In this document: piece by piece, positions 5,379 to 32,899 of the stretch
Numbering within the stretch: position 1 is the first letter of the stretch
Layout of the letters: each line of letters opens with the position of its first letter
NCBI GenBank assembly: GCA_001029295.1
Contig: LDXJ01000060.1
Location: forward strand, 127 to 64,126
Source of the DNA: Peptococcaceae bacterium CEB3
GTDB lineage: Bacteria > Bacillota > Desulfitobacteriia > Desulfitobacteriales > Desulfitobacteriaceae
DNA: 64,000 nt
Direction: 5' to 3'
Made by a program: the position numbers and the translations under genes
Notes under the pieces: generated by a model
The model's database searches: none
The model's input: only the letters and a program-made list of their open reading frames with translations
What the model was told of the DNA's origin: nothing

Positions 5379-6731
5379 TTGCTTGGCATTCTTATGGAGG
5401 AAGAAGTCGACCTGTCAAAGATTCCTGAGACGGTTCGGAGCGCCTTTCTACAATACCTTGACTTGTGCCACGAAAACGGTATCTTGACTGTTCCGGACCA
5501 AACCATTTACCAGTTTCGCGGCAGCGATGTCGGTAACATCTTGCAGTTTGCCAAACGATATTCGGATGTGAAGTCCATCCGGCTCAATGATAATTTTCGC
5601 AGTAATGAAGGCATCGTTTGCGTTGCGCGCTCGGTGGTCGAAAGGAACCCGGAACGTTTGACGAAGAAAATGGAGGGCACGCATGCCCAGCCGTACGAAG
5701 CTGGGAGTGTCTTGGCGCTGTCTTTTGCTGACTGTGATGAGGAGGCAGGTTGGATGGTGGCAAAGATCCAAGGGCTCTATGGAACCGAGTACCGTGACAG
5801 TCCCGATAGACCGGCGCGTGGGCTCTCCTACGCGGATTTTGCAATTTTGCTGCGCAGTGTTAGGCATGATGCCGAGCCGATTATCCAAGCCCTCAAGGGG
5901 GAAAACATCCCTTTCGTTGTGGGTGGTATGGCTAAGCTATTTCAAACTCAAGAAGTGCACGCGCTGCGGAACGTATTTTACTACCTGGCGGATTTTGCCC
6001 CAGCAGATGAAACAGCGCTGACTAGTGCGCAGCTTCGTAAGATCCTCCTTAAAGCAGGGCTCGGACTTACGCAGGACGCTGTAAATCGTGGCATAGCATT
6101 TTTGAAAAAGCGCAAAGCCCAGATCGGAAATACCACGATGGCGGAACTCTTTCCGCAGCGTTTGTATCTGGACTTTCTCGGGGAAATTGAACTGCGTGAG
6201 GAGAATGTGGAGCAGGTCGCAGATGACAGCTTCCGAACGGGGGAAATTGTCTACTATAACCTGGGTAAGTTTAGCCAGGTCATTTCCGATTTCGAACGGG
6301 TCAATTTCCACACGGCCTCCGACGGCCAGTACCAACAGTTTGCCAATTTCCTGCGCTACCAAGCAGAGGAGTACTATCCGGAAGGTTGGGAGGAGGCGGC
6401 CGCGGCCAGACCGGATGCGGTGCAGGTTATTACGGTACACCAAGCAAAGGGCATGCAGTGGCCCGCGGTGTTTGTGCCTTGCTTGCGCAAAAACAGATTT
6501 CCGTCCGGTCGTAGGGGTGGTCGTTCGGTTTGGCATGTTATTCCGGAAGCTGCTGTGAAAGACGCAGCTCGTTATAAAGGAACAGTGGAGGACGAAAGGC
6601 GCCTTTTTCATGTTGCGCTCACTCGGGCGGAGCGATACCTTTTTTGTTCCTGGGCACCTATTCCGGACAATCAGCAACAGCGGAAAGTGTCCGCGCCAGG
6701 GCGACGTCACTGTCCCTCTCACCTTCAGTGA
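5379..6731 (+). pseudogene. UvrD/PcrA-type helicase, N-terminally deleted
   Basis: This frame encodes the second half of a superfamily 1 UvrD-like helicase. Visible motifs are PDQTIYQFRGSD (motif III region), RLNDNFRSN (motif IV), VITVHQAKGMQWPAVFVPCL (motif V) and RLFHVALTRAERYLF (motif VI). The Walker A region is absent, and the DExx motif that should precede PDQTIYQF has been deleted: CHENGIL runs straight into TVPDQTIYQ. Homology can be followed back to about 5370. The frame is then lost near 6690-6720 and continues in the 6610-7530 frame. ATP hydrolysis should be impossible. The parent was probably a helicase fused to a nuclease domain, as in many AddA-like bacterial proteins. Confidence 0.85.
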
Positions 6732-7530
6732 ATTAAAGTATTATTTCCTCTGCCCCTACCTATTTAAAATGCGCTTCCTCTATGGCTTTGACGAGCCTAT
6801 CGATCCGGCTTTGGGTTACGGAAAGTCGCTGCACGACGCCTTGGTCGAGATTCATACGGAGTCCATTCGAGGGCATATTCCGGTTAGCGAGGACATTCCC
6901 CGCCTAGTGGAAGACCACCTTCATTTGCCGTTTGCGAACAGTCGGATTGAAGCCAATCTGCAGCAAGCGGCTGAAGAAGCCTTAGCGCGGTATCTTAGGG
7001 AGCATCGGGATGAACTGTGGCGGCTCGAACATGTCGAGAAGGAGGTTGAACTCAATCTCGGCGAGGGGGTGGTTGTCAGTGGCCGCATCGATCTCATTCG
7101 GAATACGGACACCGCTGAGATCGTTGTGGTGGACTTTAAGTCTGATCAGCGCGCCCAGCAAGAGAATATCACGAGGATGCAGCTCCAGATTTACGCGGCC
7201 GGCTATGAGCGACTCACGGGCAGGCGTCCGGACCCGATTGAGGTCCACAACCTAGACCGGGGCGGCTCAAAACGTGAGCCGGTGGACAATTCTTTGCTTG
7301 AAAAGACGATGCAAGAAATTAGCCGGGCCGGCCGCAAGATCGGGGCAAATGACCTACCACGCTGGCGGCGCAAGGGGGAATCGTGCGGACAGTGTGAGTT
7401 TACGGGTATCTGCCGTTCGGAATATGGTTTTCCATGGGTCGCCTATACTCTCAAAAAACAACAATGCCCTCCCCTTTTGGGGAGGGCGAGGCTCACGGGT
7501 TCGGTTAGGAATCGAGAGATTGTTGGATGA
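6610..7530 (+). pseudogene. PD-(D/E)XK nuclease domain of the same helicase-nuclease gene
   Basis: From about 6720 this frame carries the continuation of the helicase: LTFSELKYYFLCPYLFKMRF is the usual start of a PDDEXK_1 domain, followed by VSGRIDLIRN and EIVVVDFKSDQR (Asp and D-x-K of the nuclease site) with LQIYAAGY. The final CGQCEFTGIC resembles the cysteine cluster of AddB/Cas4-like nucleases. The first 30 codons of the frame are the helicase read out of phase. The natural end should be near PWVAYTL (7446); after that the frame runs into the terminator and Rpn block, which marks the junction of a duplicated segment. Helicase and nuclease parts were one polypeptide. Confidence 0.85.
7466..7487 (-). 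terminator. Palindromic terminator after Rpn remnant 1
   Basis: Perfect nine-base stem GCCCTCCCC / GGGGAGGGC with a TTTT loop on the plus strand, just beyond the stop of the minus-strand Rpn gene. The second Rpn copy has the same hairpin at 16299-16320 with an AAAA loop. Confidence 0.65.
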
Positions 7531-8531: not shown

Positions 8532-8720
8532 TGCTCGACCACAATTCCTCCGTCCCGTCGGAATTGTGCCGGGGTCTGACCCTAACACAACTAACACAAC
8601 GGGGAACGATTCTGGCAATTCAATACTTAGAATCTGATCAACAAGAAATCGCTGCTCACCCCTGGGATTTCCCACCCGATCAACCGTGGGCTGGGGACCG
8701 TCCCCCTCAAATGGGGACGC
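8532..8720 (+). repeat. Hairpin element, full and unoccupied
   Basis: TGCTCGAC leads into CACAATTCC (8540-8548) and GGAATTGTG (8560-8568), then GGGTCTGACCC, itself a five-base palindrome, then ACACAACGGGGAACGATTC and a tail ending in small GGGGACCGTCCCC-type palindromes. No intron is present at the GACC site where other copies carry one. Confidence 0.8.
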
Positions 8721-10340: not shown

Positions 10341-10540
10341 TGCTCGACCACAATTCCTGTGTCCCGTCGGAATTGCGCCGGGGTCCGCGCCTAACACAAG
10401 AATCGACCCTAACACAACGGGGAACGATTCAGACAATTCAACACTCGAAATCTGATCAACAACAAATCGCTGCTCAGCCCCGGGATTTCCCTCCCGGTTA
10501 ACCGTGGGTTGGGGATTGTCCCCTTCAAACGGGGATGCGA
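10341..10540 (+). repeat. Hairpin element, full and unoccupied, copy next to SGNH fragment 2
   Basis: CACAATTCC (10349-10357) faces GGAATTGCG (10369-10377), with one T-to-C change that leaves a mispair. The tail through ACGGGGAACGATTC and CTTCAAACGGGGA is the same as in the copy at 8532. No intron is present. Confidence 0.8.
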
Positions 10541-10545
10541 TCAAG

Positions 10546-10833
10546 AGGGTGAGTGAGGCAGACTACCGGAACGATATTGAGGCCATGGTCCAAAAGGCGT
10601 GGGCGAATCATATTACCCCGATCTTGGCCCTGCCCGTCCCTTATAAGGGGGCTCTCTCAGCCCATAGGGGCCGTGCGCGGCTGGCTCACGACCTACGGGA
10701 AAGAGCAAGAGATCCGGACTCTGGATTTTGCTTCCGTCTTATTTGATAGCCAAGGTAACTACCTTCCTGGCATGTCGAACGACGGGAAATACCCCTCGCT
10801 TCAGGGTTACAGGGCGATGGGGGAAAAATTGTG
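10546..10833 (+). pseudogene. SGNH/GDSL hydrolase fragment 2, frameshifted
   Basis: This is the same fragment as 8731-8966 but extends further: after RTLDFASVLFDSQGNYLPG it continues GKYPSLQGYRAMGEKL, which resembles the C-terminal catalytic-loop region of SGNH hydrolases (normally DGxHPS). The His is replaced by Tyr here (DGKYPS). A frameshift around 10650 splits it between two frames. It ends at 10830 in the right half of another hairpin element. Confidence 0.65.
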
Positions 10834-10974
10834 CCGGGGTCCGACCCTAACACAACGCTAACACAACGGGGAACGATTCAGACAATTCAACACTCGAAAT
10901 CTATCAACAACAAATCGCTGCTCAGCCCCGGGGTTTCCCTCCCGTCAACCGTGGGTTGGGGACTGTCCCCTTCA
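10829..10974 (+). repeat. Hairpin element lacking its left arm
   Basis: Starts at AATTGTGCCGGGGTCCGACC and continues through the usual tail to GGGGACTGTCCCCTTCAAGG. It is directly joined to a fragment of the 20569 gene. The left arm CACAATTCC is absent. Confidence 0.75.
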
Positions 10975-12299: not shown

Positions 12300-12349
12300 T
12301 GCTCGACCACAATTCCTCCGTCCCGTCGGAATTGTGCCGGGGTCCGACC
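12300..12349 (+). repeat. Hairpin repeat occupied by an intron
   Basis: CACAATTCC (12308-12316) / GGAATTGTG (12328-12336), then CCGGGGTCCGACC. The group II intron begins at the next base. This is the canonical filled configuration. Confidence 0.85.
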
Positions 12350-12680
12350 GTGCGCCAAGAAAAGGGTGTGTCATAGAGTGGGTGGGGATCCCACCAGAAA
12401 AGGTTAGCCAGCCATTCTGTAGCGAGTCTTGAGAGGCACAGGGTGACCCGTGTATCTAAGCGTAGACAGCAAACTAGCAGGCCGGAAGCGTAAGTTGAAG
12501 CGATAGAGCCCCGAAATCCCGAAAACGGTGAAGGCCGATGCTGTGGTCTGAGCAGAAGGCTACACCTTGCTGGTCGTAAATGCAAGAACAGCAAGGCTTC
12601 CCCGGGGTCGTAAGCCTAGCATGCTAGATATGGCTATGACACATCAACTTGGGAGACCTTACCGTCCTTCAGAAATGGAG
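12350..12680 (+). mobile_element. Group II intron copy 2, 5' part only
   Basis: Near-identical to 1888-2218, from GTGCGCC to CCTTCAGAAATGGAG. It is cut there, inside the RNA domain, and the next base starts another hairpin repeat. No maturase or 3' domains remain. Confidence 0.85.
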
Positions 12681-12760
12681 TGCTCGACCATAATTCCTCC
12701 GTCCCGTCGGAATTGTGCCGGAGTCGGGCCCCCACATAACGCAGAACGATTTGACAATTA
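12681..12760 (+). repeat. Hairpin repeat at intron truncation point
   Basis: CATAATTCC (12689-12697) / GGAATTGTG (12709-12717), with a G-T pair replacing one C-G, then CCGGAGTCGGGCCCCCAC and a degenerate ACATAACGCAGAACGATT tail. It lies about 200 bases upstream of the REP-associated transposase. Confidence 0.8.
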
Positions 12761-12773
12761 AAAGCTTCGGAGA

Positions 12774-12832
12774 GGGAACCCTCTTCGGAAGGAGAGCCCC
12801 TGATTTTCGGATCGGGAGCTCTTTTGGCATAT
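12774..12832 (+). terminator. Possible terminator hairpin
   Basis: GAGCCCCTGATTTTCGGATC GGGAGCTCTTTT forms an imperfect hairpin ending in TTTT. No intact gene precedes it, so it may be a relic. Confidence 0.4.
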
Positions 12833-12933
12833 TGAATGAAAAATAGATTTATAAGCTATTAATCAATAGGAAAATGGTAAGACATGGCGAATAAATAAAA
12901 AGGAGGAAAATCTGAGGGGAGGGCGGGAAAGAA

Positions 12934-13584
12934 GTGGCGAGAAAACTTAGGGAGTGGTGGACAGGAGCAAGCTATCATATTATGAGCAGGGGCAATCATC
13001 GGCTGGAGATCTTTCGAGATGACGAAGACCGCGGAGTTTACCTGAGTATGTTGGCACAGGTTAAAGATAAACTTCCGTTTATACTGCATGCTTATTGTCT
13101 CATGAGCAACCATGTGCATTTTCAGCTTGAAACGACAGAGAATGATCCAGGAAAGATCATGAAACTTCTCAACATGAAATACGCGATCTTCTTTAACAGG
13201 AAGTACCGCTTCGTGGGTCAGTTGATGCAGGGACGTTTCCGGGCTGAGGCTATCCAGGATGAACGATATTTCTTGGCGCTCAATCGCTATATACATTTAA
13301 ACCCTGTTAAAGCGGGTATCGTGCTCCACCCCCGGGACTACCGTTGGAGCAGTTACAACGCATATTTGGAGAGTAATTCTGTTTCCGCGGTGGATACAGA
13401 GAAGACCTTGGGTTATTTCCCGGAGCCCAAAATTAGCAGGTTTGAACAGTTTACGGTTGCCGGATTGACTACAGGTCCATCGCACGTTTCCTCTTTGCCA
13501 TCGAGACTCCAACTTGAAGATGATGGTGTAGAGGATAACTGCCCGAAGGATCAACAGGTAGAGACCTGCGAGGAGGTACAGTAG
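12934..13584 (+). CDS. REP-associated tyrosine transposase (TnpA_REP / RAYT)
   Basis: The product is 216 residues. HUH-type features are clear: SYHIMSRGN near the start, CLMSNHVHFQLE with the His-x-His metal motif, and RYIHLNPVKAGIV, where the Tyr is the expected nucleophile, followed by YRWSSYNAY. The length fits RAYTs. Such enzymes nick single-stranded palindromic REP sequences and are usually single-copy, domesticated genes not flanked by insertion-sequence ends. The GTG 12934 start has GGGAGGGCGGG upstream. The stop TAG is directly followed by the yifB ATG, and the yifB ribosome site GAGGAGG lies inside this gene, so the two are one transcript. Palindromic repeats that could be substrates are common in this window. 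Confidence 0.85.
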   Translation: MARKLREWWTGASYHIMSRGNHRLEIFRDDEDRGVYLSMLAQVKDKLPFILHAYCLMSNHVHFQLETTENDPGKIMKLLNMKYAIFFNRKYRFVGQLMQGRFRAEAIQDERYFLALNRYIHLNPVKAGIVLHPRDYRWSSYNAYLESNSVSAVDTEKTLGYFPEPKISRFEQFTVAGLTTGPSHVSSLPSRLQLEDDGVEDNCPKDQQVETCEEVQ

Positions 13585-15129
13585 ATGGCGACAGTGGTTC
13601 AGTCTTTTGCTGTATCAGGGGTTAACGCCTATCCGGTCATCGTGGAGACGGTGACCCTCCATGGACAGCCATCGGTAAACATCGTCGGGCTTGGCGACAC
13701 GGCGGTTAAAGAAGCAGCTCACCGCCTGCAAGCAGCCCTGAGTTCAGGACACTTTGAGTTTCCCAAAATGAAAGTGGTTATTAACCTAGCGCCGAGTGGA
13801 GTCAAGAAGAGTGGTTCCCACTTTGATTTGGCGATGGCAGTGAGCCTTTTACATGAGGCGGGCCAGATCTTGGTCGTTCCCGAAAAACTCGCTGATACAG
13901 CCTTTGTGGGTGAACTCTCTTTGAATGCGGAATTGCGTCCGGTCCGCGGGGTTTTGCCCATGGCCATAGCCTGTAGAGAAACTGGGACAAGGCGGCTCTT
14001 TGTTCCGGTAGAAAACTATCGGGAAGCGAGTTTGGTAAAAGGACTGGACATTTACGCATTCGCATCGTTAACAGATGTCGTGAATTATCTCCAGGCTAAG
14101 ATGGAGTACAGGCCTCCGGAACTAGGAGACAAGTCACCGAACGAAACTTTGCCTGATGGGGTTGATTTTGCCGATGTACGGGGGCAGGATGTTCTCATAA
14201 CTTACATTGTGGCAGCCGTGGCCGGGGGTCACAACATTCTTATGATTGGTTCTCCGGGGTGCGGAAAGTCGATGATTGCTAAACGCATTCCGACTATCAT
14301 GCCAGATCTCAGTGAAGAAGAGGCTCTGGAGATAACCAGGATCTATAGCATTACCGGACATTTGCGGGAGAGAGGGAGCTTGATCACTGAGCGTCCCTTT
14401 CGCTCTCCCCATCATAATGCCTCGACCAATGCCTTGGTAGGGGGAGGAAGCCCGGTGGTGCCAGGCGAAATCTCGCTGGCTCACAATGGGGTTCTCTTTT
14501 TGGATGAGATTGCGGAGTTTGATAAGAAAAGCTTGGATGCCTTGCGCCAACCGATGGAAGATAAGATTGTCACGGTTTCACGGGTTAGAAGTACGGAGAG
14601 TTTTCCCGCCAACTTCATGCTGGTAGCAGCCATGAACCCGTGCCCCTGCGGGTATTATGGACAGTCTCGGTGTCGGTGTACCGATTATGAGGTGCTCAAA
14701 TACAGACAGAAACTGTCAGGTCCCATTCTCGATCGGATCGAAGTCCATAAATATGTGCAGCCGGTTGCCTTCTTAAATCTCTCCACCCATGTCAAGACAC
14801 AAAGTTCTCATGAGCTTCGTGAGAAAGTCCAAGTTGCGAGGAGGATCCAGCAAGTACGCTTTGAAGGGAATCCTAATGTGAATTCGAATGCTCAGATGAC
14901 AGAGGCTATGATGAAAGAATTTTGCCAATTGGACGGGGAAAGTATCCGCCTACTAAGTATGGCCTTTGAAAAATTTCAGTACAGTGCCCGGACCTACAGC
15001 AAGTTTTTGAAGATTGCCAGGACGTTTGCCGATCTGGAAGAGTCCCGGTTTATCAGAAAGCAAGACATTTCTTCAGCCCTTATGGCAAGAGATTTAGAAA
15101 AGGATCGCAGCGGGATGCTTGTGATCTAA
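13585..15129 (+). CDS. yifB: YifB/ComM-family Mg-chelatase-like AAA ATPase
   Basis: The product is 514 residues, the family length. It has an N-terminal Lon-protease-like (ChlI) domain (NIVGLGDTAVKEAAHRLQAA), a central AAA+ module with Walker A GSPGCGKS near residue 220 and Walker B VLFLDEIAEF near 303, and the conserved MNPCPCGYYG cysteine patch followed by CRC. ComM proteins are helicases that promote branch migration during natural transformation. The downstream dprA supports a role in processing incoming DNA. GAGGAGG lies about 6 bases before ATG. The gene appears intact. A transposase gene directly upstream replaces the more usual yraN neighbour of Clostridia. Confidence 0.95.
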   Translation: MATVVQSFAVSGVNAYPVIVETVTLHGQPSVNIVGLGDTAVKEAAHRLQAALSSGHFEFPKMKVVINLAPSGVKKSGSHFDLAMAVSLLHEAGQILVVPEKLADTAFVGELSLNAELRPVRGVLPMAIACRETGTRRLFVPVENYREASLVKGLDIYAFASLTDVVNYLQAKMEYRPPELGDKSPNETLPDGVDFADVRGQDVLITYIVAAVAGGHNILMIGSPGCGKSMIAKRIPTIMPDLSEEEALEITRIYSITGHLRERGSLITERPFRSPHHNASTNALVGGGSPVVPGEISLAHNGVLFLDEIAEFDKKSLDALRQPMEDKIVTVSRVRSTESFPANFMLVAAMNPCPCGYYGQSRCRCTDYEVLKYRQKLSGPILDRIEVHKYVQPVAFLNLSTHVKTQSSHELREKVQVARRIQQVRFEGNPNVNSNAQMTEAMMKEFCQLDGESIRLLSMAFEKFQYSARTYSKFLKIARTFADLEESRFIRKQDISSALMARDLEKDRSGMLVI

Positions 15130-15145
15130 TAAGGTGGTTGGATTA

Positions 15146-16255
15146 GTGGAGCTTTATTGGCTATGGCTAAGCGAGCAGAAGGGCATAGGACCCGTGACCC
15201 TGCGAAAGCTCGTAAGAGTTTTTGGTTCTCCCCAGGGCGTTTACGAGGCAAGCCCCCGTGATTTGGAAATCTCAGGTCTGCGCTCAGGCCTGGCTCGGAG
15301 CTTCGCCCTTAACCGTTCCTTGGAGCGGGCTAATCAAATTGAGGAGGCTATGAAAAGACAAAACGTTCGCCTTTTGACCTTTATGGACCCTGCTTATCCT
15401 CAACACCTCAATACGGTATCCAACCTACCTGCTCTTCTGTATTACAAAGGGATTGTCATTGACACTCGCGAAAGCGTGGGAATTGTAGGAAGCCGCCGGT
15501 GTACATCCTATGGGAAACAGGTTGCGGCGGAGGCATCCGCTTATTTAGCCGGGGCAGGAGTCACGGTCGTGAGCGGGATGGCCAAGGGAATTGATAGTTA
15601 CGCCCACACAGCCTGTTTAAAGAACGATGGGTATACCCTAGCTCTTGTGGCTAATGGGCCGGATATCTGCTACCCGCCAGAAAACACGAGTCTCATGGAA
15701 GAGATTATTAAACGGGGTGCGGTAGTGTCGCCGTACCCGCCCGGGACCCGTCCTAGGCAAGAATACTTTCCTTTACGTAACCGTCTCTTGGCGGCTTGGG
15801 TGGACAAGCTCCTCGTGGTTGAGGCCGCCGAAAGGAGCGGGGCCTTAATCACAGCTAACTATGCGGTGCAGCGGAAGCGGAGGGTTTTTGCCGTTCCAAA
15901 TAGCATCTATAGCCCCGAGAGCATGGGGACGAACCGGTTGCTCTTAGAAGGGGCCGAGGTGTATTTGGAACCGGCGCAGCTCGTGAATTCTGGTATGCCA
16001 ACGGTGAAGGGAACTGTTACAGAAAGCCAAACCCAGGTTAATAGGCAAGAAGCGGCAGCGATAAGTTCCCATAGGAGGGACGAGGAACCTCCTTCTAAGG
16101 AAAGAATGATCCTAGGAAAGCTCAATGAACCAAAAGCAATCGTAGAGTTTTTGGAACTGTTTAGCGGAGATCTAAGTGCTCTGATGCTCTTTCTATGTCA
16201 GATGGAGCTGGAAGGGAAGATCAAAATCGCTGGAGACAGGGTTGAAAGAGAATGA
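15146..16255 (+). CDS. dprA: DNA-processing protein DprA
   Basis: DprA binds incoming single-stranded DNA and loads RecA in transformation. The Rossmann-like DNA_processg_A core is complete: VGIVGSRRCTSYGKQ, VVSGMAKGIDSYAH, LALVANGPDICYPPEN and a C-terminal winged helix region. Total length is about 370 residues, as usual. I prefer GTG 15146, because AAGGTGG (15131-15137) is eight bases upstream; the in-frame GTG at 15134 overlaps that ribosome site. It is 16 bases from the yifB stop, so the two form an operon. A half-copy of the hairpin repeat and the duplicated Rpn terminator follow immediately after the stop. Confidence 0.95.
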   Translation: MELYWLWLSEQKGIGPVTLRKLVRVFGSPQGVYEASPRDLEISGLRSGLARSFALNRSLERANQIEEAMKRQNVRLLTFMDPAYPQHLNTVSNLPALLYYKGIVIDTRESVGIVGSRRCTSYGKQVAAEASAYLAGAGVTVVSGMAKGIDSYAHTACLKNDGYTLALVANGPDICYPPENTSLMEEIIKRGAVVSPYPPGTRPRQEYFPLRNRLLAAWVDKLLVVEAAERSGALITANYAVQRKRRVFAVPNSIYSPESMGTNRLLLEGAEVYLEPAQLVNSGMPTVKGTVTESQTQVNRQEAAAISSHRRDEEPPSKERMILGKLNEPKAIVEFLELFSGDLSALMLFLCQMELEGKIKIAGDRVERE

Positions 16256-16292
16256 ATTGTGCCGGTGTGCTGGGGTCGGACCCCCACACAAC
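16256..16292 (+). repeat. Right-half hairpin repeat remnant
   Basis: AATTGTGCCGGTGTGCTGGG GTCGGACCCCCACACAAC follows dprA directly; the left arm is absent. Confidence 0.6.
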
Positions 16293-16298
16293 AACAAT

Positions 16299-22103: not shown

Positions 22104-23246
22104 ATGAGTAACGATTTAACATTATTCTCTTCGCCCGAACTCAAGGATATAGTTCAAGACATGCGAGATTTGCTCTCACAAAGTTATCTAGCGTTCTTGC
22201 TAGGAGCCGGATGTAGCAAGAAGGCGGGGCTTCCGCTAATGCCTGAACTCACAGTTGAGGTTTTAGGACATGAGAAGATCGGCGTGGAAACTAAAAAGCT
22301 TCTCGGTAAAGTGAGTGAGGCGTTTTCTGGCGCAGAAGCCGCTACAATCGAAGATTATATGAGCGAAATCGTTGATCTCCTATCCGTTGCTGAGAGAAGA
22401 TCACGGCGTGGGGCTACGCAGTCCAAGGTCTTCGTAGGGGGGCAAGAGAAAGACGCAGTTGAGCTTCAGAATGTGCTTGATGAAATAAAACAGGCTGCAT
22501 CATCCGCTATTGGTGATAAGGAAGTTGATATTACAACGCACCAACAATTCGTCAGAGCAATCCACAATTCGCTACAAGCGGGTAAGTCTGGCAGGGGTGT
22601 TGATTACTTCATCCTCAACTATGATACATTAATCGAAGATGCGCTGGGCCTTGAGCGAGTTATCTATTTCGATGGCTTCTCCGGTGCGGCAACTGGTTGG
22701 TGGGAACCGAGTACGTTTAACATTAAGACTCACTTAAAGGCTGCACGTGTGTTTAAGATTCATGGATCTATTGACTGGTGTTTGCTTGAAGGTGATACCC
22801 TACCAAGACGTATTCGCTCGGGAATCGAGACTAAGTTCGCCAAAAATCACATTCTAATCTACCCCGCCTCGACAAAATATCAGGAAACACAGCGTAATCC
22901 ATTCGCTCAAATGCTTCAACATATGCGTGAAAGCCTTTGCCCCAGCGAGGGAAAGGAAATGGTTCTGGCGATTTGCGGATACAGCTTCGGTGACTCACAT
23001 ATTGACTTGGAAATCGAAAACGCCTTGTACCAATCAGAGGGGCGCCTCACAATAGCGGCCTTTATAGGTACGGATGAGCCGGAAGGGAAATTGAGCAACT
23101 GGTTAGCTGATTCCACTATTTCACAACAGATTAGGGTTTATGCCAACAAGGGTTTTTTTCATGGTGATAAGGCTCTCAGGTTGGATAATAATACGCCATG
23201 GTGGAAATTTGAGATTCTATCAAGGCTACTGGGAGGGGAACGATGA
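22104..23246 (+). CDS. sir2: SIR2-family NADase of a SIR2-HerA (Nezha) defence system
   Basis: The product is 380 residues. SIR2 fold signatures are present: FLLGAGCSKKAGLPLM near residues 30-45 (NAD-binding loop), FILNYDTLIEDAL near 170 with the Asn and Asp of the active site, and VFKIHGSIDW near 217 carrying the catalytic His. Bacterial SIR2 effectors of this type deplete NAD when phage infection is sensed. ATGA overlaps the next gene, a HerA ATPase, and the pair matches the described SIR2-HerA antiphage system, in which a HerA hexamer and SIR2 form a complex. GGGAGGAAAAT precedes the ATG. All key motifs are intact, so the system may be functional. Confidence 0.92.
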   Translation: MSNDLTLFSSPELKDIVQDMRDLLSQSYLAFLLGAGCSKKAGLPLMPELTVEVLGHEKIGVETKKLLGKVSEAFSGAEAATIEDYMSEIVDLLSVAERRSRRGATQSKVFVGGQEKDAVELQNVLDEIKQAASSAIGDKEVDITTHQQFVRAIHNSLQAGKSGRGVDYFILNYDTLIEDALGLERVIYFDGFSGAATGWWEPSTFNIKTHLKAARVFKIHGSIDWCLLEGDTLPRRIRSGIETKFAKNHILIYPASTKYQETQRNPFAQMLQHMRESLCPSEGKEMVLAICGYSFGDSHIDLEIENALYQSEGRLTIAAFIGTDEPEGKLSNWLADSTISQQIRVYANKGFFHGDKALRLDNNTPWWKFEILSRLLGGER

Positions 23247-25003
23247 AGGCGAAAAGAAATCCAAACGAGCCAATCTCTAATCTGGAAATTGGTGCAGTGA
23301 TCGAAGTCGATGGAACACATATCGTTGCCGAGTTGGAGCCGATGATTACAGAACTCACTCGTGTTTACGGTGGGATCATCTACCCGATTGGCCAATTCGG
23401 CTCGATCATCAAGATACATTATGGAGCAAGGCTTATATTTGGTTATGTAGGACGTCTCCGCATGAAGTCCGAGTACGAACGCGACAAGGGACTTGCTCTG
23501 GAATCAGACGGAAGCGCACGCATTATCGAGGCTGATCTGTTTGGTGAGGGTGAATGGGTTTTCGACAACAGTGAGTGGAGGTTGGATTTTGAGCGTGGCG
23601 TGACCACCTTTCCTTTGCCCCAGCAGAAAATATATTTGACACCGCGCAATGAACTCGGCTTCATTTATGGTCAAGGAACCAGATCTGTGATTCTCATCGG
23701 TGAACACGTTGGATCAGGTGGAACCCCTTGCTATGCTGAAATGAATGAGCTTCTTGGTAAGCACACAGCGATATTAGGATCTACAGGATCTGGAAAGTCG
23801 GGAACAGTTGCCGCGCTCCTGCATGCAATTCTTGACAGAGGAAGCGACGTTGGACATCAAAACTGGCATCCTCAAATTATCGTTCTTGATCCGCATAATG
23901 AATATGGTGCGGCCTTTCCTAGTCACATTCGCCTATGTACCGATGAAAATTCACTCGCGCTTCCATATTGGCTTTTGAATATGGAAGAAACTGTTTCCCT
24001 GTTTGTTGGTAAGACTGAAGAAGCCGCAACATCTCAGACAAACATCGTCAAGAATGCGCTTCTCACTGCTCGACAAGACGGTGCTGGTAAGATTGGCATA
24101 TCGCCTAATGACATTAACGTAGATTCGCCGATCCCATACGTTTTGGGAAATCCAACCGGTCTCGATGATTTTGGGAAACGAAATGGAATTTTGGACGAAG
24201 ACGGATTTATTGGAGCAGTTAACAAACAGCGTCCTAATGGACAGAACCGCAAAGACCATGAAGGATTTAACAAGGTTATCCGAAAAGTTGACTCTCTTTG
24301 TAGAGATGGCCGTTTAAAATTCATGATGCAAGGTTGGGATGGCGTTGCCGATCCTTTACCAGAGGTAGTCAAGCAATTCCTTGGAGATAGCAATCCTATA
24401 CGAATCGTAGACCTATCTGGTGTCCCAAACGAAGTGGCAGGTGCGGCAAGTTCCGCAATTGCTCGAACGCTCTTTTCCGTGAAACTATGGCAGACACGTG
24501 AGGAGCGTGAAAGTAACCCGGTTCTACTTGTTTGCGAGGAAGCGCATCGCTATGTGCCGAATCGTGGTGAAGCGCAATACGAAGCCGCCCAGGATGCAAT
24601 CCGACGTCTTGCTAAAGAAGGGCGCAAGTACGGCATTGGCTTGATGCTCGTTTCGCAACGACCGAGTGAGGTGGAGGCTACCGTGCTTTCCCAGTGTAAC
24701 TCATGGATAGTCTTGCGCATCACGAACGACTCGGATCGTAGCCATGTCCAAGGAATACTGCCAGATTCACTGGCAGGGTTGACTAAGGTGCTTTCCGGAC
24801 TTCGTCGCAGGGAAGCCATTTTTGTGGGACAGGCCGCTGTCCTACCGTCACGTATTATGATTCGTGATCTTGTTAAAGACGGTAAACAGTTGCCTCGCTC
24901 TCAGGATATAAACTTTGATAGGGGCTGGCAAAGCAGCCCGATAACCGATGAGCACCTGACGAAGGTGGGCAAGAGGTGGCGTCTACAGAGAAGGGATGCG
25001 TGA
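23243..25003 (+). CDS. herA: HerA-type hexameric ATPase of the SIR2-HerA system
   Basis: The product is 586 residues. It has an N-terminal HAS-barrel-like segment (about residues 1-120), a RecA-like DUF87 core with Walker A LGSTGSGKSG near 176, VLDPHNEYG, Walker B with VLLVCEEAHRYVP near 428, and a sensor-like MLVSQRPSEVEATVLSQCN followed by the arginine-finger region RITNDSDRSHVQ. HerA ATPases are DNA translocases; paired with SIR2 they assemble a defence complex that combines ATPase, nuclease-like and NAD-consuming functions. It is translationally coupled to the SIR2 gene. No separate NurA nuclease gene is present, consistent with SIR2-HerA rather than HerA-NurA. Confidence 0.93.
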   Translation: MKAKRNPNEPISNLEIGAVIEVDGTHIVAELEPMITELTRVYGGIIYPIGQFGSIIKIHYGARLIFGYVGRLRMKSEYERDKGLALESDGSARIIEADLFGEGEWVFDNSEWRLDFERGVTTFPLPQQKIYLTPRNELGFIYGQGTRSVILIGEHVGSGGTPCYAEMNELLGKHTAILGSTGSGKSGTVAALLHAILDRGSDVGHQNWHPQIIVLDPHNEYGAAFPSHIRLCTDENSLALPYWLLNMEETVSLFVGKTEEAATSQTNIVKNALLTARQDGAGKIGISPNDINVDSPIPYVLGNPTGLDDFGKRNGILDEDGFIGAVNKQRPNGQNRKDHEGFNKVIRKVDSLCRDGRLKFMMQGWDGVADPLPEVVKQFLGDSNPIRIVDLSGVPNEVAGAASSAIARTLFSVKLWQTREERESNPVLLVCEEAHRYVPNRGEAQYEAAQDAIRRLAKEGRKYGIGLMLVSQRPSEVEATVLSQCNSWIVLRITNDSDRSHVQGILPDSLAGLTKVLSGLRRREAIFVGQAAVLPSRIMIRDLVKDGKQLPRSQDINFDRGWQSSPITDEHLTKVGKRWRLQRRDA

Positions 25004-25456: not shown

Positions 25457-26398
25457 ATGATGCAAAAAAAGACGTTTGACAAGAAAAACATAATACTTCT
25501 CAAAGTTGAAGAAGATGATCTGAATTCTTTTCTAATTAATATGGACATTGACGATAATGGAAATCCATTATATCAATTGGATGATTTGTCGAGAGCTATT
25601 ATAAATACTATCCCTGAATATGTGTTTGCAAATTACGAGGATCAAGAAATTCCACAGACTGATTCTGTTGAAAAACTTCGTGAAGCAGCTCGAGGTATTT
25701 ACAAAATCAAAGACTATGATTTAATGCGTCGCTGGTATTTAGATAACGAACAAGCAGCATATGATGAATTAAAGAATACCGGCAGCTCACGGCGTGGTGA
25801 GTTTGGAGAACTATTATTACACTTGTTATTGCGTGATTTCAACGGCACCATTCCGCTTGTTTCAAAAGTGTATTTCAAAGATGCTGCTGGTGTTCCAGCG
25901 CACGGTTTTGACGCTGTGCACATTACTCCAGACGATCAAATATTATGGTTGGGTGAAAGTAAGTTTTACACAGATAGCAAACGTGGTATTCGTGAATTGC
26001 TTGCTGATCTTTCCTCTCATTTTAAGAGAGAATACTTGGACGAACAATTTCTTATCATAAAGAAAAATTTACAGAATAATTCTATTCCGCAACGAGATGA
26101 ATGGATTGAAACCCTTAACGGATGTACCAAGTTAAGGGATCGGCTGCAAATGATAAATATCCCGATGTTATGCACATACCCTCATGATATTTATACATGC
26201 TTTTCTGATATGGATGATGCAGAGGCCATATCTTATCATGAAGCAAATGTTCGTGAACTCAAATCGTATTTTGCCACCCAGAATACGCATCCTTTGAAAA
26301 GCCAATTGAACGTAATTTTATTGCTCTTTCCCATTCGTGACAAAAAAGAACTCGTCACCAAGCTACATGAACGTCTTTGGCATATGCAGAATATGTGA
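25457..26398 (+). CDS. hamA: HamA (DUF1837) effector of a Hachiman defence system
   Basis: The product is 313 residues, the usual size. A DUF1837 PD-(D/E)XK-like nuclease site is visible: HGFDAVHITPDDQILWLGES KFY, with Asp near residue 151 and E-x-K near 166-168, preceded by RRGEFGELLLHLLLRDF, whose Glu is also typical. In Hachiman, HamA is the nuclease released by the HamB helicase when it senses aberrant DNA. HamB begins eight bases after the HamA stop. GAGGA lies about five bases before ATG. The composition is clearly AT-richer than the host genes, as expected for a transferred island. Confidence 0.92.
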   Translation: MMQKKTFDKKNIILLKVEEDDLNSFLINMDIDDNGNPLYQLDDLSRAIINTIPEYVFANYEDQEIPQTDSVEKLREAARGIYKIKDYDLMRRWYLDNEQAAYDELKNTGSSRRGEFGELLLHLLLRDFNGTIPLVSKVYFKDAAGVPAHGFDAVHITPDDQILWLGESKFYTDSKRGIRELLADLSSHFKREYLDEQFLIIKKNLQNNSIPQRDEWIETLNGCTKLRDRLQMINIPMLCTYPHDIYTCFSDMDDAEAISYHEANVRELKSYFATQNTHPLKSQLNVILLLFPIRDKKELVTKLHERLWHMQNM

Positions 26399-26406
26399 GG
26401 TGAACC

Positions 26407-28605
26407 ATGGACGATATTATCTCAATCATTGATATCAACGAAAGTGTTTCATATGAACAAAGTTTTGATATCGCTCAGCGTTGTTCAAAGTTGCTTTCAA
26501 GCGGTAACGAAGAGCAAGAAGCTCTTGCCCGAAGAGTTGCAATTCACATTCTTAATAACTGGGCAAAAATCCCCAGAGAAACTTATTCGCTATGGACCGA
26601 TATAGTTGAAGCAATAGGGTTTTATCCGTACTTAGAAAAACACAAAGCAACAATGCAGGTTCAATCATTGTCCGATGAAATACGGCAAAAGAGTTTTTTG
26701 TCTCATTTTTTGAGTGAAACATATTTGCACCGAGAGCAGAAGAAACTATCGGATTATATTATGGCGGGTAAAAATGTAATTGCAAGTGCGCCAACCAGCT
26801 TTGGAAAAAGTCTATTAATAGAAGAAATCGTCGCATCGGGGAAATATAAAAGTATTGTTATTATTCAACCAACGCTTGCGCTGTTAGATGAAACACGACT
26901 TAAATTAAAGAAATATAGTGACCGTTATAAAATTATCGTTAGAACGTCACAACCAGCCGTTAAGGATAAAGGAAACCTTTTTCTCCTTACTGCTGAACGT
27001 GTTATGGAATATAATGCGCTTCCTCCAATCGAGTTGCTTATTATTGACGAGTTTTATAAATTAAGCCTAAAACGAATTGACGGGCGAGCTAATACATTGA
27101 ATAATGCCTTTTTGAAAATAGTAGGAAACTGTAACTCGAGCTTCTATTTTTTAGGTCCAAATATCGATGGGATTACCACTGGCTTTGCTGAAAAATATAA
27201 TGCCGTTTTCTATAAATCAGATTTCTCATTAGTTGATTGCAACGTAATTGATATGACATCCAAAATAGACCACAGTAAAACAGGCAAAGCATTGGAAGAA
27301 GAAAAAATCACACATCTTTGTTCACTACTTGATTCGCTCAAAGATGAGCAAACGCTGGTTTACTGTGCTACTCCTGCACGCGCCAGACGTTTCGCAAAAT
27401 CCTATCTTGATTATTTAGTTTCCAAGGGTGAGTCGTCTACCATAAACCTGCCATTAGTAGAATGGATCGATAGCAATATTTCCACAGAGTGGAGTTTATC
27501 TGAAGAATTACGTCACGGCATTTCAATCCATGACGGTTCTTTGCAAAAGCATATCGGGACTTCGATTATAAAATACTTTAATGATGGTTTACTGCATTGC
27601 ATTTTCTGCACATCTACTATCATTGAGGGTGTTAATACGAGTGCAAAAAATGTCATCCTCTTTGACGGGAAAAAAGGTGGAAAAGACATTGATTTCTTTG
27701 ATTACAGCAACATAAAGGGACGATCAGGTCGGTTAATGGAACACTACGTTGGAAATATTTATAATTTCGTGGCACCACCTCCAAAAGAAGCTGTGTTGAT
27801 TGACATTCCTTTTTTTGAACAAAATCCGGTTTCGGATGAAATACTTGTTAATATCCCAGAGAGCGATATACATGACGATATGCTATCCAGATACCAAGAG
27901 TTGCATCAAACCCAATCTGAATTATTGGACATCATCGAGCGTAATGGTGTTTCAATAGACGGGCAGTTAAATATATATTATCAACTGGAACAGGACGTAA
28001 ATACTTCCAAGTATAATGATATTGCATGGGCTCAAATGCCTAATTGGAATGAGATGCAATATATATTGGGGTTAGCGGAGAATGAATTATTTCACATTGA
28101 CCATCACGGTATTAGCTCTGTCAGACAGTTGGCACTGTATTTGAATCAGTACAGGACAAGTAAAAACATTATGTACATTGTCAAAGACATCTACGGACAT
28201 AAAATGAGCAGTGTTCAGTCAAGTACCGGAGAGAAAAACTCATTAAAATACTACGACGAAGCAATTGAACAGGCTTTTCATATTTATCGTCATTGGTTTC
28301 AATTTACAGTTCCAAAGGTATTTCGAGTGATTGATAGCTTGCAAAGATATGTATGTGAAAAGCATGGCCGTAGAGCCGGTTCATACAGCTATTTTGTTCA
28401 ACAATTGGAAAATGATTTTCTTCGCGAAAATCTTTCGATTCTTATTGAGTTTGGTATCCCTGCAAGTGCAGTTCGGCAGTTAGAGGTGGAAATCCCAAAG
28501 GGAATGACGGAAGATGAGATAATCCAGTTTATCAAGAAACACAAGAACCGTTTAACGGCATCGTGGTTGCAGTACGAAAAAGACAAGCTCGATCAATGCT
28601 TATGA
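26407..28605 (+). CDS. hamB: HamB helicase of a Hachiman defence system
   Basis: The product is 732 residues, a superfamily 2 helicase. Motif I ASAPTSFGKSLLIEE lies near residue 128, motif II LLIIDEFYKL near 210 (DEFY rather than DEAD/DEAH, as in HamB), motif III region FYFLGPNI near 245, and motif VI SNIKGRSGRLMEHYVG near 434. The long C-terminal region is the HamB-specific part. The known role is surveillance of phage DNA and control of HamA. The gene is complete. Its stop lies just before a hairpin repeat and intron copy 3, so mobile elements flank the island on the right. Confidence 0.92.
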   Translation: MDDIISIIDINESVSYEQSFDIAQRCSKLLSSGNEEQEALARRVAIHILNNWAKIPRETYSLWTDIVEAIGFYPYLEKHKATMQVQSLSDEIRQKSFLSHFLSETYLHREQKKLSDYIMAGKNVIASAPTSFGKSLLIEEIVASGKYKSIVIIQPTLALLDETRLKLKKYSDRYKIIVRTSQPAVKDKGNLFLLTAERVMEYNALPPIELLIIDEFYKLSLKRIDGRANTLNNAFLKIVGNCNSSFYFLGPNIDGITTGFAEKYNAVFYKSDFSLVDCNVIDMTSKIDHSKTGKALEEEKITHLCSLLDSLKDEQTLVYCATPARARRFAKSYLDYLVSKGESSTINLPLVEWIDSNISTEWSLSEELRHGISIHDGSLQKHIGTSIIKYFNDGLLHCIFCTSTIIEGVNTSAKNVILFDGKKGGKDIDFFDYSNIKGRSGRLMEHYVGNIYNFVAPPPKEAVLIDIPFFEQNPVSDEILVNIPESDIHDDMLSRYQELHQTQSELLDIIERNGVSIDGQLNIYYQLEQDVNTSKYNDIAWAQMPNWNEMQYILGLAENELFHIDHHGISSVRQLALYLNQYRTSKNIMYIVKDIYGHKMSSVQSSTGEKNSLKYYDEAIEQAFHIYRHWFQFTVPKVFRVIDSLQRYVCEKHGRRAGSYSYFVQQLENDFLRENLSILIEFGIPASAVRQLEVEIPKGMTEDEIIQFIKKHKNRLTASWLQYEKDKLDQCL

Positions 28606-28615
28606 TTTTTGTTAA

Positions 28616-28665
28616 TGCTCGACCACAATTCCTCCGTCCCGTCGGAATTGTGCCGGGGTCTGACC
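28616..28665 (+). repeat. Hairpin repeat occupied by an intron, after hamB
   Basis: CACAATTCC (28624-28632) / GGAATTGTG (28644-28652), then CCGGGGTCTGACC, with intron copy 3 starting at the next base. Confidence 0.85.
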
Positions 28666-32542: not shown

Positions 32543-32750
32543 GAATGTCCAGCGCAGCCCCAAATTATCGTAATTCCCGCCACCCCGTCCACACAACTCA
32601 GAACCGTACAGCGCCAGCTGCGAGTGGCGGCCTACTGCCGGGTGTCCACCGACCAGGAGGAACAGCTTACCAGCTACGAAGCCCAAATAGCCTACTACAC
32701 TGACAAGATTATGACCAACCCCGAGTGGACCATGGCGGGTATTTTTGCTG
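32543..32750 (+). pseudogene. Large serine recombinase, N-terminal fragment
   Basis: The frame reads [50 protein letters not shown] and [11 protein letters not shown], the start of a resolvase/integrase catalytic domain of integrative elements; the Ser of RVST is the nucleophile. At 32749 it passes into a hairpin repeat, where the family would continue DEGITG. No start codon is identified, so both ends are lost. Confidence 0.85.
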
Positions 32751-32806
32751 CTCGACCACAATTCCTCCGTCCCGTCGGAATTGTGCCGGGGTCAGACCGT
32801 GCGCCA
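32749..32806 (+). repeat. Hairpin repeat with an 8-base intron relic
   Basis: A full hairpin (TGCTCGACCACAATTCC to GGAATTGTGCCGGGGTC) ends AGACC and is followed by GTGCGCCA (32799-32806), the first eight bases of the group II intron. The next hairpin then begins. Confidence 0.8.
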
Positions 32807-32807
32807 A

Positions 32808-32880
32808 TGCTCGACCACAATTCCTCTGTCCCGTCGGAATTGTGCCGGGGTCTGACCTCAACACAACGGGGGGCTATTCT
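32808..32880 (+). repeat. Tandem second hairpin repeat, unoccupied
   Basis: CACAATTCC / GGAATTGTG with CCGGGGTCTGACCTCAACAC AACGGGG continuing into the usual tail, 59 bases after the first copy. Confidence 0.8.
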
Positions 32881-32899
32881 GATTGCGCCAGGATAAGTC

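Follow-up and report, generated by a model that had tools for sequence, protein, structure and literature searches.

A recurrent RAYT-YifB2-DprA2 module in Firmicutes and its possible partnership with nearby hairpin elements

Introduction

In the genome of Peptococcaceae bacterium CEB3 (G000, 5.3 Mb), a gene for a RAYT, or TnpA_REP-like transposase, lies just downstream of a hairpin repeat and is followed directly by yifB and dprA. Does the enzyme act on the hairpins, and what do its two neighbours have to do with it? The window considered here is a stretch of 64,000 nucleotides that forms part of contig C60 of this genome; G001 is the genome of a sister species. An earlier note had proposed that the hairpin is a substrate of the RAYT, and that the RAYT is a domesticated enzyme.

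Sequence comparison partly supports a RAYT-palindrome partnership. The more interesting result is a recurrent RAYT-YifB2-DprA2 module. The preferred reading, to which a probability of a little over one half can be given, is that the gene encodes the HUH-Y1 enzyme of this module, which would act on nearby hairpin elements with the assistance of the other two proteins.

The transposase gene

The open reading frame at 12934-13584 (+ strand) has a GTG start and encodes a RAYT/TnpA_REP-like protein of 216 aa, with HUH motif and tyrosine both intact. The earlier note had described a TnpA_REP with an HUH motif and a single tyrosine about 200 bases 3' of a hairpin copy; the gene is real, and the hairpin ends about 217 nt upstream of it. 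The start position that the note gave, 12681, belongs to this hairpin copy. The HUH motif (H60-V-H62, within N-H-V-H at 13108-13119, + strand) and the catalytic tyrosine (Y119 in RYIHLNP, codon at 13288-13290, + strand) are invariant among six aligned RAYT orthologues.

Pfam Y1_Tnp (43.5 bits, above its cut-off of 23) is the sole domain, and no C-terminal HTH extension was found by Pfam. NCBIfam REP_Tyr_transpos, with a cut-off of 80, falls slightly short at 73.7 bits, and relatives in G041, G008 and on C35 of G024 likewise score below it (74.7-78.3 bits). TnpA_REP 4er8 was the only solved structure matched by the orthologue profile (E=1.2e-4). The enzyme would work in the manner of a RAYT/TIRYT and probably belongs to the broad TnpA_REP group. 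In the alignment with 4er8, most residues with which the E. coli enzyme reads GTAG (numbered as in the available text of PMC6006769) are not kept, Q95 being the exception, which is compatible with a different foot but does not prove one. The second RAYT of G000, on C63 (L083:7050-9330), is in pieces, with IS200-sized and TnpB-sized reading frames in between.

Structure and distribution of the hairpin element

Judged by their sequence, the hairpins belong to a composite element made up of the foot TGCTCG, a hairpin that varies between species, a palindrome reading GGGGTCNGACC(CC), and a tail that is conserved. A full copy in G000 or G001 has the foot, then a hairpin reading CACAATTCC...GGAATTGTG, then the palindrome as CCGGGGTCNGACC(CC), and last a tail close to CACAACGGGGAACGATTCTGACAATT. 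A conserved foot beside the hairpin, which the earlier note had anticipated for a RAYT substrate, is indeed present: of 17 full copies, 14 have TGCTCG unchanged and all 17 have it with no more than one mismatch, after five of the 22 rows tabulated were set aside as non-element (reverse strands of degenerate copies, or chance matches). In G041, in G035 and on C63 of G000, other stems follow this foot. A constant foot with a variable stem is the layout expected for REP-like substrates.

All window copies listed here lie on the + strand. The operon is preceded by an element at 12681-12760 (foot at 12681-12686, hairpin at 12689-12717, degenerate palindrome at about 12718-12732, then the tail), which interrupts a group II intron. 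It is followed by an element core at 16254-16295, which overlaps the dprA stop and carries GGGGTCGGACCCC at 16272-16284. Full copies occupy 8532-8620 and 10341-10438 (the latter with two mismatches in its hairpin), and a copy at 10829-10887 retains palindrome and tail, its outer hairpin missing. At 12300-12349 (foot, hairpin and palindrome) and at 28616-28665, about 10 nt past the hamB stop, a group II intron begins immediately after the element. Another copy, at 32749-32798, lies within a truncated serine-recombinase-like reading frame and ahead of an intron remnant, with a second, tandem copy at 32808-32882. Finally, a degenerate copy at 1740-1822 ends a truncated IS3-like transposase reading frame.

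With up to three mismatches allowed, the hairpin occurs 11 times in G000 (seven copies in the window, three on C12 and one on C40); the window copies were found with at most two mismatches, and a reversed-pattern control gave none. Since seven of the 11 copies fall in the window, the hairpin forms a local cluster rather than a genome-wide family. In the sister genome, three copies lie inside 10 kb. The tail is broader in distribution, being found in 19 of 45 family genomes, mostly with the palindrome ahead of it, and the 9-bp CACAATTCC stem is best explained as a genus-specific arm added onto a more widely conserved element. Exact GGGGTCNGACCCC occurs in 12 of 66 order genomes; its count was dropped as a marker, as it reaches at least 10 places in just three of the 66 (G027, G038 and G041).

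Window copies fold no better than shuffled sequences (z -1.23 to -0.52). Covariation in the palindrome is weak, at 7.22 of 14 pairs against 6.89 when permuted, a value reached by 19 of 2000 permutations with all 64 copies kept, irregularly spaced ones included. In G035 (L077), the RAYT module is surrounded by repeats of its own, about 60-340 nt long and on one strand, several of which have the TGCTCG foot.

Association between RAYT genes and palindromic elements

The palindrome motif GGKGNCNGNCMCC lies within 1 kb of the RAYT at 25 of 68 loci, against 0.4 expected from shuffles; the 12 discovery loci were excluded, leaving 68 that are independent of the motif definition. Near RAYT genes the motif occurs at 0.333 per kb, and far off at 0.089 per kb. 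Within 1 kb, it was not found at the RAYT-YifB-DprA loci L126, L140, L149, L158, L159, L167, L185, L196 and L125. Repeats around the RAYT-YifB loci of Bacilli hold GGTGTCAGGCACC, GGGGACAGTCCCC and similar palindromes, and in L133, L151 and L166 they bracket the whole RAYT-YifB unit. It was the CACAATTCC stem that had been taken for the RAYT-linked palindrome; the palindrome common to other RAYT loci is GGGGTCNGACC(CC) instead.

Proximity is also seen for the element itself. Among RAYTs in genomes that carry both, five of 22 lie no more than 20 kb from an element core (0.40 expected). Both RAYT loci of G000, the RAYT on C32 of G027 and that of G041 are within 10 kb of, or inside, element clusters, and on the same strand. 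By GC skew, the core lies on the G-excess strand in nine of nine stretches and in all 39 copies, while neighbouring reading frames are opposite to the element strand in 13 of 38 cases upstream and 14 of 39 downstream. G027 is the clearest case: along 65 kb of ordinary genes, 15 copies share one strand. This strand rule fits a Y1 mechanism, since IS200/IS605 elements use the lagging-strand template, according to the available part of Quentin 2018 (PMC6006769).

Three comparisons of filled and empty sites place the joining after GGTGT, GGTGT and GGAGT, with a sharp left junction. In the same comparisons, the right flank of the empty site fails to resume past the element. Therefore only the left junction is established, not a clean insertion; one-ended or replaced junctions would look like this.

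Presence and absence tell less. Both RAYT and element occur in 13 of the 45 family genomes, the RAYT only in 12, the element only in six and neither in 14, an association that is not significant in this set (Fisher p=0.22). At E≤1e-20, no RAYT was found in G001, G006, G012, G026, G028 and G039, six of the 19 element-bearing genomes, all with the core. The idea that relatives would have hairpin and RAYT together is not supported in its strict form, as the sister G001 and G006 have the element without such a RAYT. Of the proposal that the hairpin is a RAYT substrate, the foot, the RAYT-type palindrome, the strand rule and the proximity speak for it, and strict co-occurrence is the part without support.

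These distributions would also suit elements that belong to some other Y1 enzyme, either an IS200-type TnpA or a lost RAYT, with the module merely sharing a repeat-rich region: the six genomes with the element and no RAYT, and the 12 with a RAYT and no core, speak for such a case, and G000 also has IS200-sized Y1_Tnp genes. However, the proximity is above chance, the RAYTs of G000, G027 (C32) and G041 sit at element clusters on the element strand, and many other RAYTs are flanked by related palindromes. This alternative is regarded as somewhat unlikely.

The RAYT-YifB2-DprA2 operon and its recurrence

The RAYT comes first in an operon of the order RAYT, yifB, dprA. Its stop abuts the yifB start (13584/13585), and dprA begins 5 nt past yifB (15129/15134). 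YifB2 (13585-15129, + strand) is an accessory ComM/YifB-type AAA+ ATPase (TIGR00368, 515.8 bits; ComM 8rxd, E=1.7e-104) whose Walker A and B residues are invariant. DprA2 (15134-16255, + strand) is an accessory DprA of the RecA-loader family (TIGR00732, 216.6 bits), and the other DprA of G000 is on C25. The window yifB shares 71-81% identity with the second copies of G035, G008 and G041, each of which follows a RAYT, and just about 40% with housekeeping copies. Seven of eight RAYT-YifB-DprA genomes searched have two YifB above the cut-off (the other copy of G369 is split), and seven of eight have two DprA (the second of G149 is fragmentary); G001, which lacks the module, has a single YifB and a single DprA. 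The window yifB and dprA are therefore second, accessory copies, distinct from the housekeeping pair. The earlier view of a domesticated RAYT fused into a yifB-dprA transcript has to be revised: the two genes are second copies within a recurrent RAYT module, which is accessory and probably mobile, and domestication is unsupported.

Genome contigs were scanned with the RAYT as query, and 80 of 574 RAYT relatives were retained. RAYT, YifB and DprA follow one another in this order on one strand at 12 of the 80 loci (Firmicutes), and a further nine have YifB directly after the RAYT without the full triple. One more has YifB further down, ahead of a second RAYT, and one has only a distant DprA. Such a scan is biased, since the RAYT was its starting point. 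A search with YifB, which is free of that bias, covered 398 phylum genomes and at E≤1e-135 found YifB in 46. Six loci, the window included, are of the YifB2 kind, with identity of at least 59% (the next best YifB has 48%). All six have DprA downstream, and all five that can be judged have a RAYT upstream, the sixth sitting at a contig end; among the other YifB loci of this search, a RAYT was found in the available flank of none of 31. The three genes form one operon that recurs at different sites in Firmicutes.

In a quick YifB tree, which leaves out L129 (broken frame), three groups are seen: the 19 YifB of triples (SH-aLRT 99), nine RAYT-linked YifB of Bacilli (100) and the remaining 31 (76). 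The RAYTs of the triples are scattered over the RAYT tree, with at least eight changes forced, and a single origin of the triple argued from that tree was rejected on this count. The RAYT that accompanies the module in G185 is just 35% identical, G024 has a yifB/dprA remnant adjoining its RAYT, and G027 has a RAYT without the pair. Together, the scatter and these cases indicate that YifB2-DprA2 keeps some RAYT, with the RAYT swapped or the pair lost. On these trees, YifB2 is one clade whose RAYT partner has been exchanged or lost repeatedly. At L167 (Clostridium algoriphilum), two RAYT-YifB-DprA modules lie about 3 kb apart, one of them decayed.

No description of the operon was found in the open-licence literature on RAYT/REP, TIRYT, integrons, DprA or ComM/YifB. 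The available parts of Di Nocera 2013 (PMC3733652), Quentin 2018 (PMC6006769) and Nunvar 2010 (PMC2817692) mention neither 'DprA' nor 'chelatase', and that of Quentin 2018 does not contain 'YifB'.

Other window genes include a SIR2-like gene followed by a HerA-like helicase at 22104-25003, a SIR2-HerA defence pair (PADLOC E=9e-73 and 7e-130), and HamA with HamB of Hachiman defence at 25457-28605 (PADLOC E=8e-123 and 1e-230). At 5379-7530, a helicase-like reading frame adjoins a Cas4-like nuclease frame (PADLOC match for the latter), possibly a degraded AddAB-type locus. DprA2 (15134-16255) itself matches the PADLOC models ShosA (4e-55) and PsyrA (2e-28). YifB2 and DprA2 might accordingly be passengers, or a competence or defence cassette that uses the HUH nuclease otherwise, for example in cutting the single strands of incoming plasmids or phages. 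The SIR2-HerA and Hachiman genes and the ShosA/PsyrA matches would fit, although housekeeping DprA may match those models too. Against this, the pair accompanies a RAYT wherever this can be judged, even an exchanged one, and the RAYT has no PADLOC match, and we consider the idea unlikely.

Group II introns and cassette-like arrangements

Rfam identifies introns of family RF02005 in the window. Those starting at 1888, 12350, 28666, 32799 (a remnant) and 37429 share their starting point within the element, exactly after GGGGTCNGACC, which is 13 nt past the hairpin where a hairpin is present. The element at 12681 in turn interrupts the intron that starts at 12350. Bacterial introns of class C have a preference for hairpins. 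From the exact position of the intron starts it follows that introns, too, use the element as a target. That the family is chiefly a homing target for group II introns, its RAYT neighbourhood being coincidental, would account for the five window starts and one more on C12, but most copies have no intron, those of G001 have none at that point, and foot conservation, cross-genus spread and the strand rule would be left unexplained. As a principal explanation this is improbable, and both may hold, with the intron exploiting the element.

Least probable is that the repeats are recombination sites of an integron-like cassette array with RAYT-YifB2-DprA2 as one cassette, which would fit the clustering, the single strand per cluster and the toxin-antitoxin-like small genes between L079 copies, but was dropped, as none of the 45 family genomes has an integron integrase above the TIGR02249 cut-off and the G027 copies sit among ordinary genes of both orientations; nor were ends of the integron site-end consensus, GTTRRRY/RYYYAAC, seen by eye. 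The toxin-antitoxin cassette picture of L079 does not extend to G027, and among open-licence papers no literature on Desulfitobacterium with integrons or attC was found.

A possible mechanism and its implications

If the RAYT-YifB2-DprA2 module does act on the nearby elements, these may be RAYT-type single-stranded substrates, a view that the comparisons above support. The RAYT would recognise the palindrome or hairpin where the lagging-strand template leaves it exposed, and would cut at the foot (T|GCTCG) by means of Y119, with single-stranded element DNA being released or joined. In the roles that we infer for the helpers, DprA2 would bind the single-stranded intermediate and load RecA, and a ComM-type hexamer of YifB2 would drive branch migration. 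Strand invasion at existing copies, or close to them, might then bring the intermediate into the chromosome, which would account for both the local clustering and the one-sided junctions.

More tentatively, the three proteins could constitute a dedicated machine for mobilising hairpins, in which the HUH enzyme produces or joins single strands, and a private RecA loader and branch-migration helicase bring them into the chromosome; this is possible, though we would not call it probable. If true, a transposition system with interchangeable RAYT partners would have captured a recombination pathway of the transformation type, hinting at an unrecognised, helper-assisted movement of tiny DNA elements in Firmicutes. 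For the spread of REP-like elements by RAYTs, and for the host factors that it requires, the recurrent operon of RAYT, ComM-type helicase and DprA would offer a concrete candidate pathway (RecA loading and branch migration), together with a system in which to examine it. The results also suggest that where 'extra' copies of yifB or dprA occur in Firmicutes, the upstream gene should be checked before they are called competence genes.

Comparison with known systems

The locus resembles REPtrons, which combine a RAYT/TnpA_REP with REPs, in its HUH motif and single tyrosine, its Y---NP signature, its match to 4er8, and the presence of foot-and-hairpin repeats near the RAYT. In contrast, the foot of the window element is TGCTCG and not GTAG/GTGG (GT[AG]G), although elements flank the operon; the family has few, local copies where REPs have hundreds; and the RAYT does not keep most of the GTAG-reading residues and shares an operon with YifB and DprA. 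Unlike the inverted REP pair of RAYT type, the copies at 12681 and 16254 have the same orientation, while those of L166 are inverted.

TIRYTs and TIRtrons (Di Nocera 2013; TnpA_REP subclass 2.1 in Quentin 2018), as the available parts of these papers present them, have GGGGWSAS-kind palindromes, of which GGGGTCAG is an example among the repeats here. The copies bracketing the operon read GGAGTCGG and GGGGTCGG, and GGGGTCAG occurs elsewhere, for example at 32788. The window RAYT differs from TIRYTs in being short (216 aa) without an HTH match, in having direct rather than inverted repeats around its operon, and in its YifB/DprA partner genes, which go unmentioned for TIRYT in those parts.

With IS200/IS605, the locus shares the HUH-Y1 family, the hairpins, joining after a short target, and an orientation that tracks the replication strand (nine of nine stretches match GC skew). 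It differs in lacking TnpB and in having gene-free substrate elements, and it may also lack a defined right end, since the filled and empty sites show a sharp junction on the left only. With the ComM (YifB) and DprA of natural transformation, finally, the two helper proteins share their sequence family and catalytic motifs, whereas the window pair are second, separate copies that are linked to a RAYT.
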